From NCBI GenBank assembly GCA_016218925.1, contig JACRCR010000160.1, positions 1 through 64,000 on the forward strand: 64,000 bases of DNA, in the 5' to 3' direction. This DNA is from Deltaproteobacteria bacterium. GTDB taxonomy: Bacteria > Desulfobacterota > Binatia > UBA1149 > CAITLU01. The notes beneath the pieces were generated by a model, which ran no database searches, was not told the origin of the DNA, and saw only the letters and a list, made by a program, of their open reading frames with translations. Positions 55,154 to 64,000 of the stretch are shown in pieces; position 1 is the stretch's first letter; each line of letters begins with the position of its first letter. Both the position numbers and the translations under genes were made by a program.

Positions 55154-58100
55154 CTACAGTCCGGCAAGGACGTCGAGCAGGCGTTGCTGGTCGGTCCTGC
55201 CCTTGTCCAGGCACGCGGTGGCTCCAGCGGCGCGACTGCGTTCGAGTTCGTCCTGGGTGCACGCACCGGTGAGGATGATCACCGGCAGCCGCTGCCACCG
55301 CGTCGAACGCCGGATCGCATCGGTGAGTCCGAACCCGTCCATGCCAGTCATGTTCACGTCGGTGATGACGGCGTCGACGGTTTCGCGCTCGAGCAGGGCC
55401 AGCGCTTCTTCGCCGGAGGCCGCTTCGATCACTTGATAACCGGCTCTCGACAGCAGCCGCGCTTCCAGGACCCGCTCGTCGCGCGAATCGTCGACGATCA
55501 GGACTCGCCCCGCTCGTTCCCTACTCCGGCGTGTCTCGAGCAACTCGCGCACCTTGCGCAGCAACACGTCGGTCGGGCACGGCTTGGGCACGAATTCGCT
55601 CCCGGGTTCGAGCAGACCATGGCGCACGATGGCGTCGTCGGCGTACCCCGACATGTAGAGGATCCGTGTGCTGGGGCGCAGCGCGATCAACCGCTCGGCC
55701 AGTTGCGGTCCGCTGATCCCCGGCATCACGACGTCGGTGAGCAGCAGATCGATGTTTCCCTGGAATCGTCGAGCGATCTCCAGGCCCTGCTCCCCATCGG
55801 CGGCGGGAAGCGTCCGGTAGCCGTGACTCTCGAGTATCCGGCGGACCACATCGCGAACCGCCGCCTCGTCTTCCACCAGCAGGATGGTCTCCGTGCCTCC
55901 GATCGCCGTGGACGAGGACGTACGCTCGGCGGTCTCCACCGGAGCGTCGACGCGTGGAAGGTAGATGTTGAACGTCGTTCCTTGCCCTGGTTCGCTGTAG
56001 ACGGCGATGTGCCCTCCGCTCTGCTTCACTATCCCGTGCACGGTGGCCAGCCCGAGCCCGGTACCCTTTCCGGGTTCCTTGGTCGTGAAGAACGGTTCGA
56101 AGATGCGCGCGAGGGTCTGCTTGTCCATGCCCTGACCGGTATCGGATATCGAGAACGACACGTACTTTCCCGGGCTGACATCGACGTGCGATCGCGCATA
56201 CGCTTCGTCGAGCTCGGCTTCGCCGGTTTCGATAGTCAGCTTGCCGCCGTCCGGCATCGCGTCGAGTGCATTCAGCACCAGATTCATCACGATCTGGTGC
56301 AATTGGTTGGGATCTACGCGAACGTGCCCGGACGGCGTTTTCGACACGATCGTCAGGTGGACATCCTCGGTGATCAGACTCGTGAGCATGCTCTCGATTC
56401 CGCGCAACTCGGTGTCGAGATCGAGCACCTTGGGTTGGAGGACCTGCTTGCGGCCGAAGGCGAGCAGCTGCGCGGTCAGCGCCGCCGAACGTCGAGCGGC
56501 ATTGTGGATCTCACCGATGGGCCCCAGCATGGCAGGCTGGCCGCCGGCAGCGTCGGCAAGCAGGTCGCAGTACCCGTTGATCACGAAGAGCTGGTTGTTG
56601 AAGTCGTGCGCGATTCCCCCCGCCAGCCGTCCCACCGCCTCCATCTTCTCCGCCTGACGGAACCGTTCTTCGAGGCGCAGCCGCTCGGTGACGTCTTCCT
56701 TGATGGCGATGAAATGGCTGATGTGGCCTTCGTCATTGCGAACCGGAGTGATCGTCTGTCGCTCGGTGTACAGGCTACCGTTCTTGCGGCGGTTGACGAG
56801 CTCTCCTTCCCAGATGTTTCCGGCCAGGATCGTGTCCCACAGGACTTTGTAGACGGAAACGTCCTGCAGGTCCGACTTGAGAAGCTCGCGCGGGTTGCGG
56901 CCGATGGCCTCAGCCCAGCTATAGCCGCTGAGAGCGGTGAAGGCGGGGTTGACCCACTGGATCGCACCGTCGCGGTCGGTGATGACGATCGCGTTGCCCG
57001 CCGACTCCAGAGCGGAGCTCTGCAGGTGCAGCCGCTCCTCGGCCTGTTTGCGCTCGGTGGTGTCCGAGCGGATCGCGACGTATTGAAACGGCTTGCCATC
57101 GGCACCGAGAAACGGGACTACGGTGGTGTCTCCCCAGTTGATGGTTCCATCCCGGGCGCGGTTGGCGAGTTCGCCTTTCCACACCCGTCCGGCGCGCGTC
57201 GTAGCGCGTATCGAGCGCACGAACTCGGGTGAGTAAGTTCCGGGATCGATCAGGCGATAATCTTCACCGACGAGCTGCTCGCGAGCATACTTCGAGATCG
57301 CACAGAAGTTGTCGTTGACGTAGGTGATCTTACCCTTCGCGTCGGTTATCGCGACTATGGCGTGCTGGTCGAGAGCGAATTTCTGATCCCTCAGCTCGCG
57401 GACCACCGAGTCGGTGCGCGTCAGCGCGTCGTCGAGCGTGCGCGAGAGCGCACCGATCTCGTCATCTCCGGCGATCTCGCTCCAGTTCTCAGGAGCGTTC
57501 TCGTGGCGATGTTCGATGAGTTTCCCGATCTTCGCTATCGGGGCGAGGACCAGGCGGTTGAGCATCGCGTATCCGAGAGCGGACAGCAGCAGCAACGCCG
57601 AGAGCAGGGCGAGCGAGAACTCGACGGTCAGACGCCGGATCGCGGCCTGAGAGGGACGCAGATCGAGATGAACGATTACCGCTCCATCGACCAGCGGTCC
57701 GGCCGCCAGTTCCGGCTGGCTGAGAAGCAGCGGCGACGTGAAGTCGAAACGACCGGTACCGCCGTGATAGTGGCTGGAGCTGTGCCTGGTGCGGACAGCT
57801 CTCGCGAAATCGTCTGCGGCATTGTCTACCGGCAATGTGTCAAGAGGTTCGCCGAGCCACGCCACACGCGTCGAGGCCATGATGCGAGCCGGATGGCCGC
57901 CGGCCACGATGATGAGGCTGACCTCCTTTTCCGCGCCGAGCGCGGTGACCACGCGCTGCAACTCACCCTGGCGCGAAATGCTCTCGGCCGCGTAGTTGAG
58001 CGAATTCGCCAGCAATTCGGCGCGTAGACGTACCTTGCTGATGACCAGGTTGCGCGACACCACGTAGGTACCCCACACACCGGCAAGCGACAGGGCAACG

Positions 58101-58171
58101 CCGACCACGATCAACGGTTGCAGGATCTTGCGCCTGAGCGAGCGCGCGACCGGGGTTGGTGCGGCCCTCAT
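55154..58171 (-). CDS. membrane hybrid histidine kinase (periplasmic sensor-HAMP-PAS-PAS-HisKA-HATPase-REC-REC)
   Basis: LQPLIVVGVALSLAGVWGTYVVSRN (TM); two PAS (DQHAIVAITDAKGKITYVNDNFCAISKY; AIVITDRDGAIQWVNPAFTALSGYSWAEAIGRNP); AGGIAHDFNNQLFVINGYCDLL; GTGLGLATVHGIVKQSGGH; two REC (ETILLVEDEAAVRDVV...LLLTDVVMPGISG; VLIVDDSRDERVLEARLL...AVITDVNMTGMDG). Confidence 0.9.
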   Translation of the reverse strand: MRAAPTPVARSLRRKILQPLIVVGVALSLAGVWGTYVVSRNLVISKVRLRAELLANSLNYAAESISRQGELQRVVTALGAEKEVSLIIVAGGHPARIMASTRVAWLGEPLDTLPVDNAADDFARAVRTRHSSSHYHGGTGRFDFTSPLLLSQPELAAGPLVDGAVIVHLDLRPSQAAIRRLTVEFSLALLSALLLLSALGYAMLNRLVLAPIAKIGKLIEHRHENAPENWSEIAGDDEIGALSRTLDDALTRTDSVVRELRDQKFALDQHAIVAITDAKGKITYVNDNFCAISKYAREQLVGEDYRLIDPGTYSPEFVRSIRATTRAGRVWKGELANRARDGTINWGDTTVVPFLGADGKPFQYVAIRSDTTERKQAEERLHLQSSALESAGNAIVITDRDGAIQWVNPAFTALSGYSWAEAIGRNPRELLKSDLQDVSVYKVLWDTILAGNIWEGELVNRRKNGSLYTERQTITPVRNDEGHISHFIAIKEDVTERLRLEERFRQAEKMEAVGRLAGGIAHDFNNQLFVINGYCDLLADAAGGQPAMLGPIGEIHNAARRSAALTAQLLAFGRKQVLQPKVLDLDTELRGIESMLTSLITEDVHLTIVSKTPSGHVRVDPNQLHQIVMNLVLNALDAMPDGGKLTIETGEAELDEAYARSHVDVSPGKYVSFSISDTGQGMDKQTLARIFEPFFTTKEPGKGTGLGLATVHGIVKQSGGHIAVYSEPGQGTTFNIYLPRVDAPVETAERTSSSTAIGGTETILLVEDEAAVRDVVRRILESHGYRTLPAADGEQGLEIARRFQGNIDLLLTDVVMPGISGPQLAERLIALRPSTRILYMSGYADDAIVRHGLLEPGSEFVPKPCPTDVLLRKVRELLETRRSRERAGRVLIVDDSRDERVLEARLLSRAGYQVIEAASGEEALALLERETVDAVITDVNMTGMDGFGLTDAIRRSTRWQRLPVIILTGACTQDELERSRAAGATACLDKGRTDQQRLLDVLAGL

Positions 58172-59166
58172 AGCGGCGGCTCTTTACCGACGAAGATCGC
58201 GGTGAAAGCGTCACTGCGGCGATCGGCTCCTTTGATTTGTCCGCTCTGGCGCATCAGCCGGTCACAGGTGTCGATTGCGGCTGTGAGTTTTCCGCCCGGT
58301 CGCAGATAGTCGGCCTGATCGGACTCGAAGAGGCGTTTGGTGCCGCCCGTCAAAGCCTCGCGAAATTCCGCGGGCGTGATGTTCTCGCGGCCGGCCATTA
58401 TCCGGTCGGCATCGTCCGGATAATGGTCTCGGTACGCGACAGCGCGATGATATGCGCGCAGCAGCTTGGCGATGTCAGCCGGGCGCCGGGCGTTGATCTC
58501 GGCCTCCACTGCGATGACGTCGAGCACTTCGCCGGGGATATCTGCAGTGGAGAAGATTTTGTGGGCCGCGCCGTCGCGCAGCAACCTGATCGAAGTTGGA
58601 GGGTAGGACACCACCGCGTCAGCTTCCCCTTTGCGAAAAACGTCGAGCATCGAGACTTGGTCCATCGGTACCGGCCTGACGTCGGCCAGCGTGAGTCCGT
58701 TTTTCTCGAGGGCGCGCCCGAGCACGTATCCGCCGAGCGACGCCGGTTCGATGGCAATGCGCGCTCCGCGCAAACCGACACCATCGGCGATGCCCGCGCG
58801 GGCCAGGATGACGTCCGCACCGTCGGAGTAGTCGACGACCTGTACGATCTGGGGCGAACGGTCGCAGTTGTCGCGGATCTGCAGCACATCGATCACCGTC
58901 GTCGCGATGACGTCGATCTGGCCGCGTTCGTAACTACGCCGGGCATCGGACAGGCACGAAAACTCGACGATTCGCAGATCCAGCCCTTCGTCGCGGTAGA
59001 AGCCCTTCTCCTGGGCCAGATACAGGAACTCGTAGCCGGGCCACGGATTGATGCCCAGTCGCAGAGAAGGGGCGGCTTCCGGAGAACACCCGATGACGAA
59101 CGAGAGTGCGGCGGTTGTCACCAACGGGCGAAGGTAGCGGGCGATCGGGTTGCGGGTCACCGGCAT
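58168..59166 (-). CDS. ABC-type substrate-binding lipoprotein (NMT1/THI5/SsuA-like)
   Basis: Lipobox SFVIGCS; LRLGINPWPGYEFLYLAQEKGFYRDEGLDLRIVEFSCLSDARRSYERGQIDVIATTVIDVLQ...AIEPASLGGYVLGRALEKNGL. ATGA overlap with the hybrid kinase. Confidence 0.85.
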   Translation of the reverse strand: MPVTRNPIARYLRPLVTTAALSFVIGCSPEAAPSLRLGINPWPGYEFLYLAQEKGFYRDEGLDLRIVEFSCLSDARRSYERGQIDVIATTVIDVLQIRDNCDRSPQIVQVVDYSDGADVILARAGIADGVGLRGARIAIEPASLGGYVLGRALEKNGLTLADVRPVPMDQVSMLDVFRKGEADAVVSYPPTSIRLLRDGAAHKIFSTADIPGEVLDVIAVEAEINARRPADIAKLLRAYHRAVAYRDHYPDDADRIMAGRENITPAEFREALTGGTKRLFESDQADYLRPGGKLTAAIDTCDRLMRQSGQIKGADRRSDAFTAIFVGKEPPL

Positions 59167-61442: not shown

Positions 61443-64000
61443 ATGGCCACACAGAGCGCACCGCGACCCCACCACGCCTTCAAGGAGCCGCACGGACTCT
61501 CGCCGCGCATCCAGTGGCTGCGCGACCACTACTTTCGCGGCCTGGGCCGTAGCTGGAACAACGAATTCACCTGCTGGACGACCGGTACGGCGTGGGACGT
61601 CGTCTACGACGAACTCGCCTACTACATCGTTCCCGAGACCTACGCCTTCTTTCAGACCTTCCGGTCCTCGACTCTGCAGGCGGCGCGTCCGGTTCCTCTC
61701 GAGGCCGACTTCTGGAATTGGAGTCTGCCCGAGCGGCGCGCGTGGCTGATCCGCAAGGTGATGGTCGACTGCGTGCCGCAGGAGGTGCTGCCCGGCGACC
61801 TGATAGCCGGAGCTCGGTTCAACATTCTGGTCTCGCGCGCCTGGACCAAGCGTGAGAGTGCGCGCCGCGATCGACTGGTCAACGGGCCGCACGCAATCCG
61901 CGCGGCGGTCAAGTGGTTCCACGAGCACGGCTACGGGAACAGCGGCGCCACTTCGGGTCATCTGATCCCGGGCCACGCGCGCGCGTTGGAAATCGGCTGG
62001 AAGGGGATCCACGACGAGATCGAGAGCGCCTACGAGGCGCTGCCTGCGCGTGACAAGCGCGGCGCGAAAGGTGCCGAGCTGCGTGCGATGAAGACGGCCG
62101 CGACGATGTCTCGCGATGTCGCGGCGAAATATGCCGCGCTGTGCAGTCGCCTCGCCGATGAAGAAGCCGACCCGCTGCGCAAGTCCGAGTTGGTGGCGAT
62201 GGCCGCCAACCTCGAGCGGGTTCCATGGCTGCCGCCGCGCAATTTCTGGGAGGCGCTGCAGGCACTGTGGATCAACCACATGCTGATCATGAGCGACGAG
62301 AACTATCCGGGACCGGGCGTGAGCTTCGGCCGCATGGACCAGTACCTGCTTCCGTACTGGCAGCGCTCGCTCGCCGAAGGCATGGACCGCGAGTTCGGCA
62401 AGGAACTCCTCGAGTGTTTCTGGGTGCACGCCAACACCGCCTATGACGCGATGATCAGGATGGGCGGCAACCAGGGCATCACCGCGGGCTTCGGGCAGTT
62501 GATCAGTCTGTCCGGACTCGGCGCCGATGGGCGCGACATGACCAACGACCTCACCTACGCGATCCTCGAGGTCGTCGACGCGATGTCGCCGATCCTCGAA
62601 CCCAAGCCCAACGTGCGGCTGCACCGCGGCACACCCGAAGTGCTGCTCGACAAGGTAGTCGAGATGATAGCCGCGAGTCAGGGCGCACCGTTTCTGCTCA
62701 ACTTCGACGAACGCTCGATGGCCGGTATGCTGCGCGAGGCCAGGATGGCCGGCTGCGAGCACCTCATCCACGAAGGCAACGTACACGAGTACGCGTCGGT
62801 GGGTTGTCTGGAGAACACGATGGTCGGCAACGACCGATCGGGGACCGTCGATAGCAATCTCAACCTGCTGAAAGCCGTCGAACTGGCGCTGACCGGTGGC
62901 TGCGATCTGGTCCCGGCCGTGGATCCGCTCACCGGCAAGGCGGCGCGGATTACGCGCGACGGCGCGCATACGCCGCAGGCCGCTGACTTTGCCGGTTGGG
63001 AGGACTTCTGGGCGGCCTACGTCGAGCAGACCCGCGCGATCGTGCGGCGCTGTGTGGACCTCTACGAGCGCAGCGAGGCCGCGCGTGCGCAGTTCAGCCC
63101 GACGCCGTATCTGTCGTGTCTGGTCGGCGGATGCATCGAGCGCGGACTCGATATCACGCGGGGAGGCGCGGAGCTGAGCTTCACGACTATCGAGGCGGTC
63201 ACGTTTGCGACCACGGTCGATTCGTTGCTGGCGATCAAGTACCTGGTGTTCGACGCCAAGAAAGCGACCATGATCGAACTGGTGCGGGCTCTGCGCGACA
63301 ACTGGGAGGGGCACGAGACGCTGCAGGCGTGGGCCAAGTTCCGCGCGCCCAAGTACGGGCGCGACGACGACAGCGCCGACGCGATGGCACGCGACGTGAT
63401 GACGGTGTGGACCGAGGAGACCTGGCGGCATCGCACCCGCTCTACCGGGCGCCAGTTCCGTCCGGGCATGCTGAGCTGGAACTACTGGGTGGGCGACGGC
63501 TACGTAATGGCCGCCAGCGCCGACGGACGGCCCAAAGGACGCTTCCTGTCCAACGCGATATGTCCTTCCAACGGAGCAGATACCAACGGCCCCACCGCCA
63601 ACGCGAACTCGGTCGGCAAGGCGCTCGGTGGCAGGGCGCCCGCCGCCCGCGTTTCGGGCAGCGCCAAGGCCGGCGCGAAGCCCGGGGACTTCGGCGACTG
63701 GCAGGACTACGTCAACATGCTGCCCAACGGCGCCAGCCACACGATGACGTTCAGCCCGGCGCTGCTCCGGGACGCCGAGCACCGCGAGAAATTCAAGGCT
63801 TTTCTGCGCGGCTACTGCGAGAATGGCGGCACCGCCTTGCAGGTAAACGTGCTCGACGTCGAGACGCTCAAGGACGCGCAGAAACATCCCGAGGATTACC
63901 GTCACCTGCTGGTGCGCGTGACGGGCTACAATGCTTACTTCACGAGCATCGGCCGCGAGCTGCAAGACGAGATAATCGCGCGCGAGATGCACCAGCAGAT
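61443..64000 (+). CDS. glycyl radical enzyme (pyruvate formate-lyase/eliminase/decarboxylase superfamily), C-terminus just truncated by the window edge
   Basis: My translation from ATG 61443: MATQSAPRPHHAFKEPHGLSPRIQWLRDHYFRGLGRSWNNEFTCWTTGTAWDVVYDELAYYIVPETYAFFQTFR... Active-site region EYASVGCLENTMVGNDRSGTVDSNLNLLKAVELAL (Cys codon 62805-62807). C-terminal glycyl-radical motif RVTGYNAYFTSIGRELQDEIIAREM (Gly codon 63924-63926). No + strand ORF for it in the supplied track. Confidence 0.92.
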   Translation, partial: MATQSAPRPHHAFKEPHGLSPRIQWLRDHYFRGLGRSWNNEFTCWTTGTAWDVVYDELAYYIVPETYAFFQTFRSSTLQAARPVPLEADFWNWSLPERRAWLIRKVMVDCVPQEVLPGDLIAGARFNILVSRAWTKRESARRDRLVNGPHAIRAAVKWFHEHGYGNSGATSGHLIPGHARALEIGWKGIHDEIESAYEALPARDKRGAKGAELRAMKTAATMSRDVAAKYAALCSRLADEEADPLRKSELVAMAANLERVPWLPPRNFWEALQALWINHMLIMSDENYPGPGVSFGRMDQYLLPYWQRSLAEGMDREFGKELLECFWVHANTAYDAMIRMGGNQGITAGFGQLISLSGLGADGRDMTNDLTYAILEVVDAMSPILEPKPNVRLHRGTPEVLLDKVVEMIAASQGAPFLLNFDERSMAGMLREARMAGCEHLIHEGNVHEYASVGCLENTMVGNDRSGTVDSNLNLLKAVELALTGGCDLVPAVDPLTGKAARITRDGAHTPQAADFAGWEDFWAAYVEQTRAIVRRCVDLYERSEAARAQFSPTPYLSCLVGGCIERGLDITRGGAELSFTTIEAVTFATTVDSLLAIKYLVFDAKKATMIELVRALRDNWEGHETLQAWAKFRAPKYGRDDDSADAMARDVMTVWTEETWRHRTRSTGRQFRPGMLSWNYWVGDGYVMAASADGRPKGRFLSNAICPSNGADTNGPTANANSVGKALGGRAPAARVSGSAKAGAKPGDFGDWQDYVNMLPNGASHTMTFSPALLRDAEHREKFKAFLRGYCENGGTALQVNVLDVETLKDAQKHPEDYRHLLVRVTGYNAYFTSIGRELQDEIIAREMHQQ

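Follow-up and report, generated by a model that had tools for sequence, protein, structure and literature searches.

Glycyl radical enzymes (GREs) drive major anaerobic conversions, among them choline to TMA, hydroxyproline use, sulfonate cleavage and p-cresol formation, and throughout the superfamily a glycyl radical gives rise to a thiyl radical and then to a radical on the substrate. New pathways came to light when earlier orphan GRE clades were assigned. According to a 2024 review, the functions of many abundant gut GREs are unknown (PMC11574389). Here we describe a GRE encoded at the end of a 64,000-nucleotide stretch of DNA (the window) from a deltaproteobacterial genome. In both fold and sequence it is closest to the eliminases, rather than to PFL, decarboxylases or fumarate-adding enzymes.

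Among the described enzymes, HypD is both the best single-protein PDB match (279 bits) and the best fold match, and it likewise has a C-x-E pair, a His at the H160 position and an activase next door. The two proteins nevertheless share 24% identity in the fold alignment, HypD D278 and T645 are lost and the N-terminal 168 residues of the GRE cannot be aligned; furthermore, the partner of HypD is pyrroline-5-carboxylate reductase, whereas that of the present family is a split-barrel protein. CutC is the best profile match (395 bits) and shares the C-x-E pair and the eliminase-type fold, but our family lacks microcompartment genes and has His173 where CutC has Asp. The glycerol and 1,2-propanediol dehydratases (1r8w, 5i2g, 9rco) show high fold similarity and their His164 has an equivalent in the family, although their His281-Ser282, Tyr339 and Asp447 are replaced. 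The split-barrel partner has the same fold as the PNPOx/FDOR proteins (Rv1155, Rv2991, HupZ, the Desulfovibrio FMN-binding protein and PhdC), from which it differs in being a two-barrel tandem of ~280-300 aa with invariant residues of its own and in scoring 36 bits against TIGR03618, whose cut-off is 79.

A complete GRE gene extends past the window

The original prediction placed a + strand GRE ORF of more than 2.5 kb, absent from the list of ORFs, at the open edge of the window and regarded the antisense 912-aa ORF as spurious, and both statements were borne out. The GRE ORF starts at 61443, is open at the window end and, on the 89,717-bp contig, encodes a complete product of 853 aa; the predicted start was right, while the predicted end fell four bases short of the true stop (Table 1). 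The protein scores 386 bits with PF02901 (PFL-like) and 86 bits with PF01228 (Gly_radical), both above cut-off, which places it in the GRE superfamily. Comparison with three orthologues gave dN/dS values of 0.09-0.18, as expected under purifying selection, and the antisense frame contains 1, 2 and 8 stops in the same three, so the 912-aa ORF is spurious. Taken together, these results demonstrate that the GRE is the real gene.

The radical-loop and catalytic-Cys motifs are both present as originally described, the latter as GCLENTMVGND with the Cys455-Leu-Glu457 arrangement and the former with Gly828. All three catalytic residues (C455, E457 and G828) are invariant in 36/36 family members, which come from several phyla and have a mean identity of 70%. 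Matches to solved GREs and to NCBIfam GRE models begin at about residue 169; the N-terminal ~168 residues are thus unalignable in sequence, although a predicted model of the protein can be superposed on whole GREs.

Table 1. Positions of the GRE, its sequence features and the genes downstream of it
Feature	Position	Strand	Remarks
Glycyl radical enzyme gene	61443..64000 in window, true stop 64004 on contig	+	852/853 codons inside window
N-terminal ~168 residues of GRE	61443..61946	+	sequence not alignable with solved GREs or NCBIfam GRE models
His173	61959..61961	+	family-invariant; aligns with glycerol dehydratase His164 and HypD His160
Y-P-G-P-G signature, residues 288-292	62304..62318	+	1-2 residues longer than most references
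Thiyl loop GCLENTMVGNDRSGTVD, residues 454-470	62802..62852	+	catalytic Cys455 and Glu457
L-S-W-N-Y-W signature, residues 677-682	63471..63488	+	aromatic (Trp679) at HypD Thr645 position
Glycyl radical loop RVTGYNAYFTSIGRELQDEI	63915..63974	+	Gly828 codon 63924-63926
Radical SAM activase	64022-65014 (off-window)	+	starts 18 bp after GRE stop
Tandem split-barrel PNPOx-like protein	65011-65931 (off-window)	+	PF01243 match
Anaerobic sulfatase maturase, radical SAM/SPASM	65928-67253 (off-window)	+	TIGR03942 486 bits, cut-off 349

The family forms its own clade outside the characterised GREs

The best NCBIfam score of the GRE was 392 bits against a subfamily cut-off of 678, and no equivalog exceeded 359 bits against cut-offs of 1000-1150; as a control, a CutC sequence reached 1566 bits against a cut-off of 1050. 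The protein is not a PFL (TIGR01255, 89 bits vs 994), having C-L-E in place of adjacent Cys-Cys, nor a HypD (NF043068, 359 bits vs 1100), since D278 and T645 are replaced. Similarly, it falls short of CutC (TIGR04394, 296 bits vs 1050), from which it stands in a separate clade, of the sulfopropanediol dehydratases HpsG/HpfG (NF048009/NF048011, 344 and 335 bits vs 1000) and of HPAD and indoleacetate decarboxylase (NF033715/NF033718, 184 and 235 bits vs 1150 and 1100). In trees with labelled HypD, YbiW, CutC, PflD-like, HpsG, HPAD and PFL references, the family formed one clade with a long stem and 100% SH-aLRT, the only support measure of this short search, outside every one of these groups; HPAD-labelled sequences stood on a separate 100% branch. 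Both trees contain one mis-framed row, L001, whose long branch is to be ignored, and IslA, IAD, benzylsuccinate synthase and glycerol dehydratase, which had no separate tree references, were compared by score only. With a clade of its own and all NCBIfam scores below cut-off, the GRE lies outside the characterised clades, in line with the earlier view that it matches no nameable subtype.

A profile built from the family scored CutC at 395, HypD at 379 and isethionate sulfite-lyase at 345 bits, followed by benzylsuccinate and methylalkylsuccinate synthases at 221-225, HPAD at 170 and PFL at 75 bits. With an AlphaFold model of the GRE (mean pLDDT 82.9, lower in loops such as the Gly loop and residues 340-351), a fold search, whose ranking partly tracks sequence similarity, returned HypD (8e-43), 1,2-propanediol dehydratase, CutC and glycerol dehydratase at the top and the fumarate-adding enzymes lower; HPAD was absent from the best 50 matches. 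An eliminase/decarboxylase-type enzyme had been predicted from the Cys-x-Glu pair. The pair is indeed there, but it is common to decarboxylases and so not specific to eliminases; it is the fold and the profile scores that favour an eliminase.

Another well-supported clade, likewise unassigned, consists of GREs of ~970-1050 aa with an extra N-terminal region of ~170 aa, which looks SCP2-like by eye and has no Pfam match. These long GREs come from L097:6044-8959, from L099 and from two contigs of the source genome itself, C207 and C107 (L002, L004), and in L097 and L099 one of them stands in tandem with the GRE-activase-PNPOx operon.

Most substrate-contacting residues of known eliminases are replaced in the alignment

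Pocket positions were mapped by profile and MAFFT sequence alignments only, with the substrate-contact roles of residues in glycerol dehydratase and HypD assumed from general knowledge; we take the diol-binding set of glycerol dehydratase to be H164, H281, S282 and D447. In the alignment, the H164 position alone of the glycerol/propanediol dehydratase set is kept. The Y-P-G-P-G loop replaces His281-Ser282 by Pro-Gly and occupies the site of HypD Asp278, Tyr339 becomes Gly351 and Asp447 becomes Val469. These signatures are almost wholly retained in a member of 47% identity. Because polar substrate contacts are replaced, the pocket appears to differ from those of the reference enzymes and is probably roomier or more aromatic, which is consistent with a new substrate class.

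The GRE, its activase and a tandem split-barrel protein form a conserved module

It had been suggested that a radical SAM activase be sought to the right of the window, and one was found 18 bp downstream of the GRE. It scores 277 bits with TIGR02494 (cut-off 174), has a CxxxCxxC motif and two ferredoxin-type 4-Cys clusters, all conserved, and scores under every substrate-specific model. The gene after it matches PF01243 (PNPOx_N) at 32.8 bits, over the cut-off of 28.1, and this profile is matched at E<=0.01 in 23/30 homologues of the partner. A model of the protein (pLDDT 92.5) consists of two split barrels in tandem. Its fold neighbours, which mostly match one half of the protein only, are HupZ, which binds heme, the prenyl-FMN maturase PhdC, and split-barrel proteins of the F420 and FMN types. 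Profile and fold search thus agree on a split-barrel protein; we lean towards its binding flavin, while its best-known relatives include heme- and F420-binding proteins.

We surveyed 88 loci by gene calling and clustering, with a direct tblastn check. Wherever a locus extends for at least 1 kb beyond the GRE, the activase is next to it (79/79), and tblastn found the PNPOx-like gene in 75 of the 76 loci with at least 2 kb downstream; in the 76th it was seen by gene call only, one gene further on. The order GRE-activase-PNPOx is repeated wherever contigs are long enough. A GntR-type regulator lies directly upstream of the GRE in 41/80 loci (one representative is GntR+FCD). Beyond module and regulator, no gene was conserved past a handful of the 88 loci, and no conserved transporter or downstream enzyme in the loci surveyed names the pathway. 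Since the three genes are compact and the regulator recurs in about half of the loci, expression of the entire module followed by screening is feasible. A concrete and testable clue is offered by the universal flavoprotein-like partner, which the best-known GREs do not have.

The family is widespread and apparently undescribed

A scan of contigs from GTDB species returned at least 572 relatives, a count that pools this family with possible other GREs. The best 80 of these, nearly all full-length, are 58-75% identical to the GRE, so that the protein is found in at least 80 further species; their record titles name Deltaproteobacteria/Desulfobacteraceae/Syntrophaceae, Chloroflexi, Spirochaetes, Bacteroidetes, Clostridia and Binatota. 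The family thus occurs in Desulfobacterota, Chloroflexota, Spirochaetota, Bacteroidota, Bacillota and Binatota. Among 98 genomes searched as relatives, the source genome included, full-length relatives were found in seven others, with identities of 73-89% in six and of 47% in the seventh, and in one further genome the gene is split across two contigs. The family is carried by 20/32 GRE-rich genomes in a selected set from one Desulfobacterota class and by 1/80 genomes of an Anaerolineae class, namely the seed. It is the sole PF02901 GRE found in 3/10 genomes searched, and no member occurred in the plasmid collection, where the best matches had ~30% identity. The source genome itself, 94% complete with 4.66 Mb in 245 contigs, has seven PF02901 matches and only four activases over the TIGR02494 cut-off; its surplus GREs may share activases or sit at contig ends.

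No description of the family was found in the open-access literature on GREs with PNPOx, Binatota and ether cleavage, and the clade may already be present as an unnamed cluster in the superfamily analysis of Levin et al. 2017. The only comparable combination found in that literature was that of a GRE with a PNPOx-annotated protein in the limonenylsuccinate synthase operon (PMC12583861). A benzene-activation cluster in the literature differs from the family, as do the aminoacyl radical enzymes, in which the Gly is replaced. This is apparently a new GRE family with a novel conserved partner, widespread, strongly conserved and undescribed.

Proposed reaction and alternative explanations

In the mechanism that we propose, the activase would use SAM to generate a radical on Gly828, which would pass to Cys455; this residue would then abstract H from the substrate, with Glu457 as acid/base, the role of its counterpart in known GRE eliminases. 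A radical elimination would expel water or some other leaving group from a substrate outside the known families and probably bulkier than theirs, giving an aldehyde, a ketone or an unsaturated product. The split-barrel partner, probably flavin-binding, would reduce or otherwise handle this product, like the reductase that follows HypD. We consider it probable that the GRE catalyses elimination, and the statement as a whole, that of an orphan eliminase-type GRE module, is fairly probable. That the partner reduces the product is more tentative and rather open to doubt. More speculative still, and on the whole unlikely, is a new GRE class whose substrate for radical elimination is bulkier, hydroxylated and possibly lipid-linked or hydrophobic; a tandem split-barrel flavoprotein would be its obligate partner and reduce the product, and the two steps would make up a mobile anaerobic pathway that occurs in at least six phyla and ranges from sediments to the rumen. 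A lipid is hinted at by SCP2-type genes in three loci only (L051, L054 and L058), in two of which glycerol kinase is in the same operon, and by the presence of an acyl-CoA ligase or an enoyl-CoA hydratase in the vicinity of a few loci. The genes after the L054 module encode SCP2, an Fe-alcohol dehydrogenase and an aldehyde ferredoxin oxidoreductase, which would suit an aldehyde product, as well as FAD oxidoreductases.

The partner might instead be a GRE accessory, providing FMN electron supply to the activase or oxygen protection and repair, with the GRE still an eliminase; in favour of this can be counted the PNPOx-annotated protein without clear function in the limonenylsuccinate synthase operon, likened to the partner by annotation only (PMC12583861). 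The partner is also the sole co-conserved gene, with no other pathway enzyme conserved, and small Desulfovibrio FMN split-barrel proteins are among its structural neighbours. To our knowledge, however, well-studied GREs (PFL, CutC and HypD) work without such a partner, and an accessory role seems to us unlikely. Were the GRE instead to decarboxylate a carboxylic acid or cleave it as a C-C lyase, in the manner of HPAD or indoleacetate decarboxylase, the shared C-x-E pair and size range would fit, and GntR/FCD, the commonest regulator upstream of the GRE, is a class that often senses carboxylates. We regard this reading as improbable and prefer an eliminase, because eliminases lead the fold search, with HPAD outside the best 50, and because HPAD scores 170 bits against 380-395 for CutC/HypD; the separate branch of the HPAD-labelled sequences also speaks against it.

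It is very improbable that the eliminase is simply a divergent diol/glycerol or hydroxyproline dehydratase with an ordinary substrate. The nearest folds are those of these dehydratases, and His173 is retained at the His164/His160 position, but H281-S282, Y339 and D447 align with P-G, G351 and V469, HypD D278 and T645 are replaced, scores are far under the equivalog cut-offs, and no recurrent microcompartment or proline-pathway cluster lies beside the GRE in the 88 loci. The occurrence of the family in hydrocarbon-degrading sediment and syntrophic lineages, as well as aromatic residues at pocket positions, could suggest a fumarate-adding hydrocarbon activator like the X-succinate synthases. The benzylsuccinate and methylalkylsuccinate synthases nevertheless reach only 221-225 bits with the family profile, neither small beta/gamma subunits nor succinyl-CoA transferase genes recur beside the GRE in the 88 loci, and the family is present in rumen Clostridia, which together make fumarate addition extremely unlikely.

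Genomic neighbourhood of the module

A DUF1329 gene (PF07044, 120 bits) does lie upstream of the GRE, as had been noted, but the implied association does not hold: in a same-genus genome it is absent beside the GRE, where substrate-binding-protein and sensor-kinase genes stand instead, and we therefore consider it unrelated. In the window, a hybrid sensor kinase and a substrate-binding lipoprotein are encoded on the - strand at 55154-59166; in the same-genus genome (G001) such a kinase/lipoprotein pair is directly divergent from the GRE.

Downstream, the sulfatase maturase gene shares 4 bp with the end of the PNPOx gene, and the maturase faces a convergent Cys-type sulfatase (CSPTR motif; region 65928-70000). 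In the same-genus genome, a UvrD helicase encoded on the opposite strand comes after the PNPOx gene, and the sulfatase pair is absent beside the GRE. Sulfatases or an alkyl sulfatase occur near five further loci; since there is no background rate for the ~90 loci, such proximity is not evidence, and we rejected a sulfatase link. Of the downstream genes, the activase and PNPOx-like gene alone belong to the system. Glycerol kinase, directly upstream in three loci, was too rare to serve as a substrate clue; the extensions in L051 and L058 comprise SCP2, an M24 peptidase and glycerol kinase. A large DUF11-containing surface-type protein is encoded downstream of the sulfatase at L008:8686-13521 (the GRE there is L008:444-3005). 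In rumen Clostridia (L124 and L126), genes for FAD-dependent oxidoreductases and for an FNR/2Fe-2S protein extend the module, and in L124 an FAD oxidoreductase/FNR pair is found on both sides of the module.
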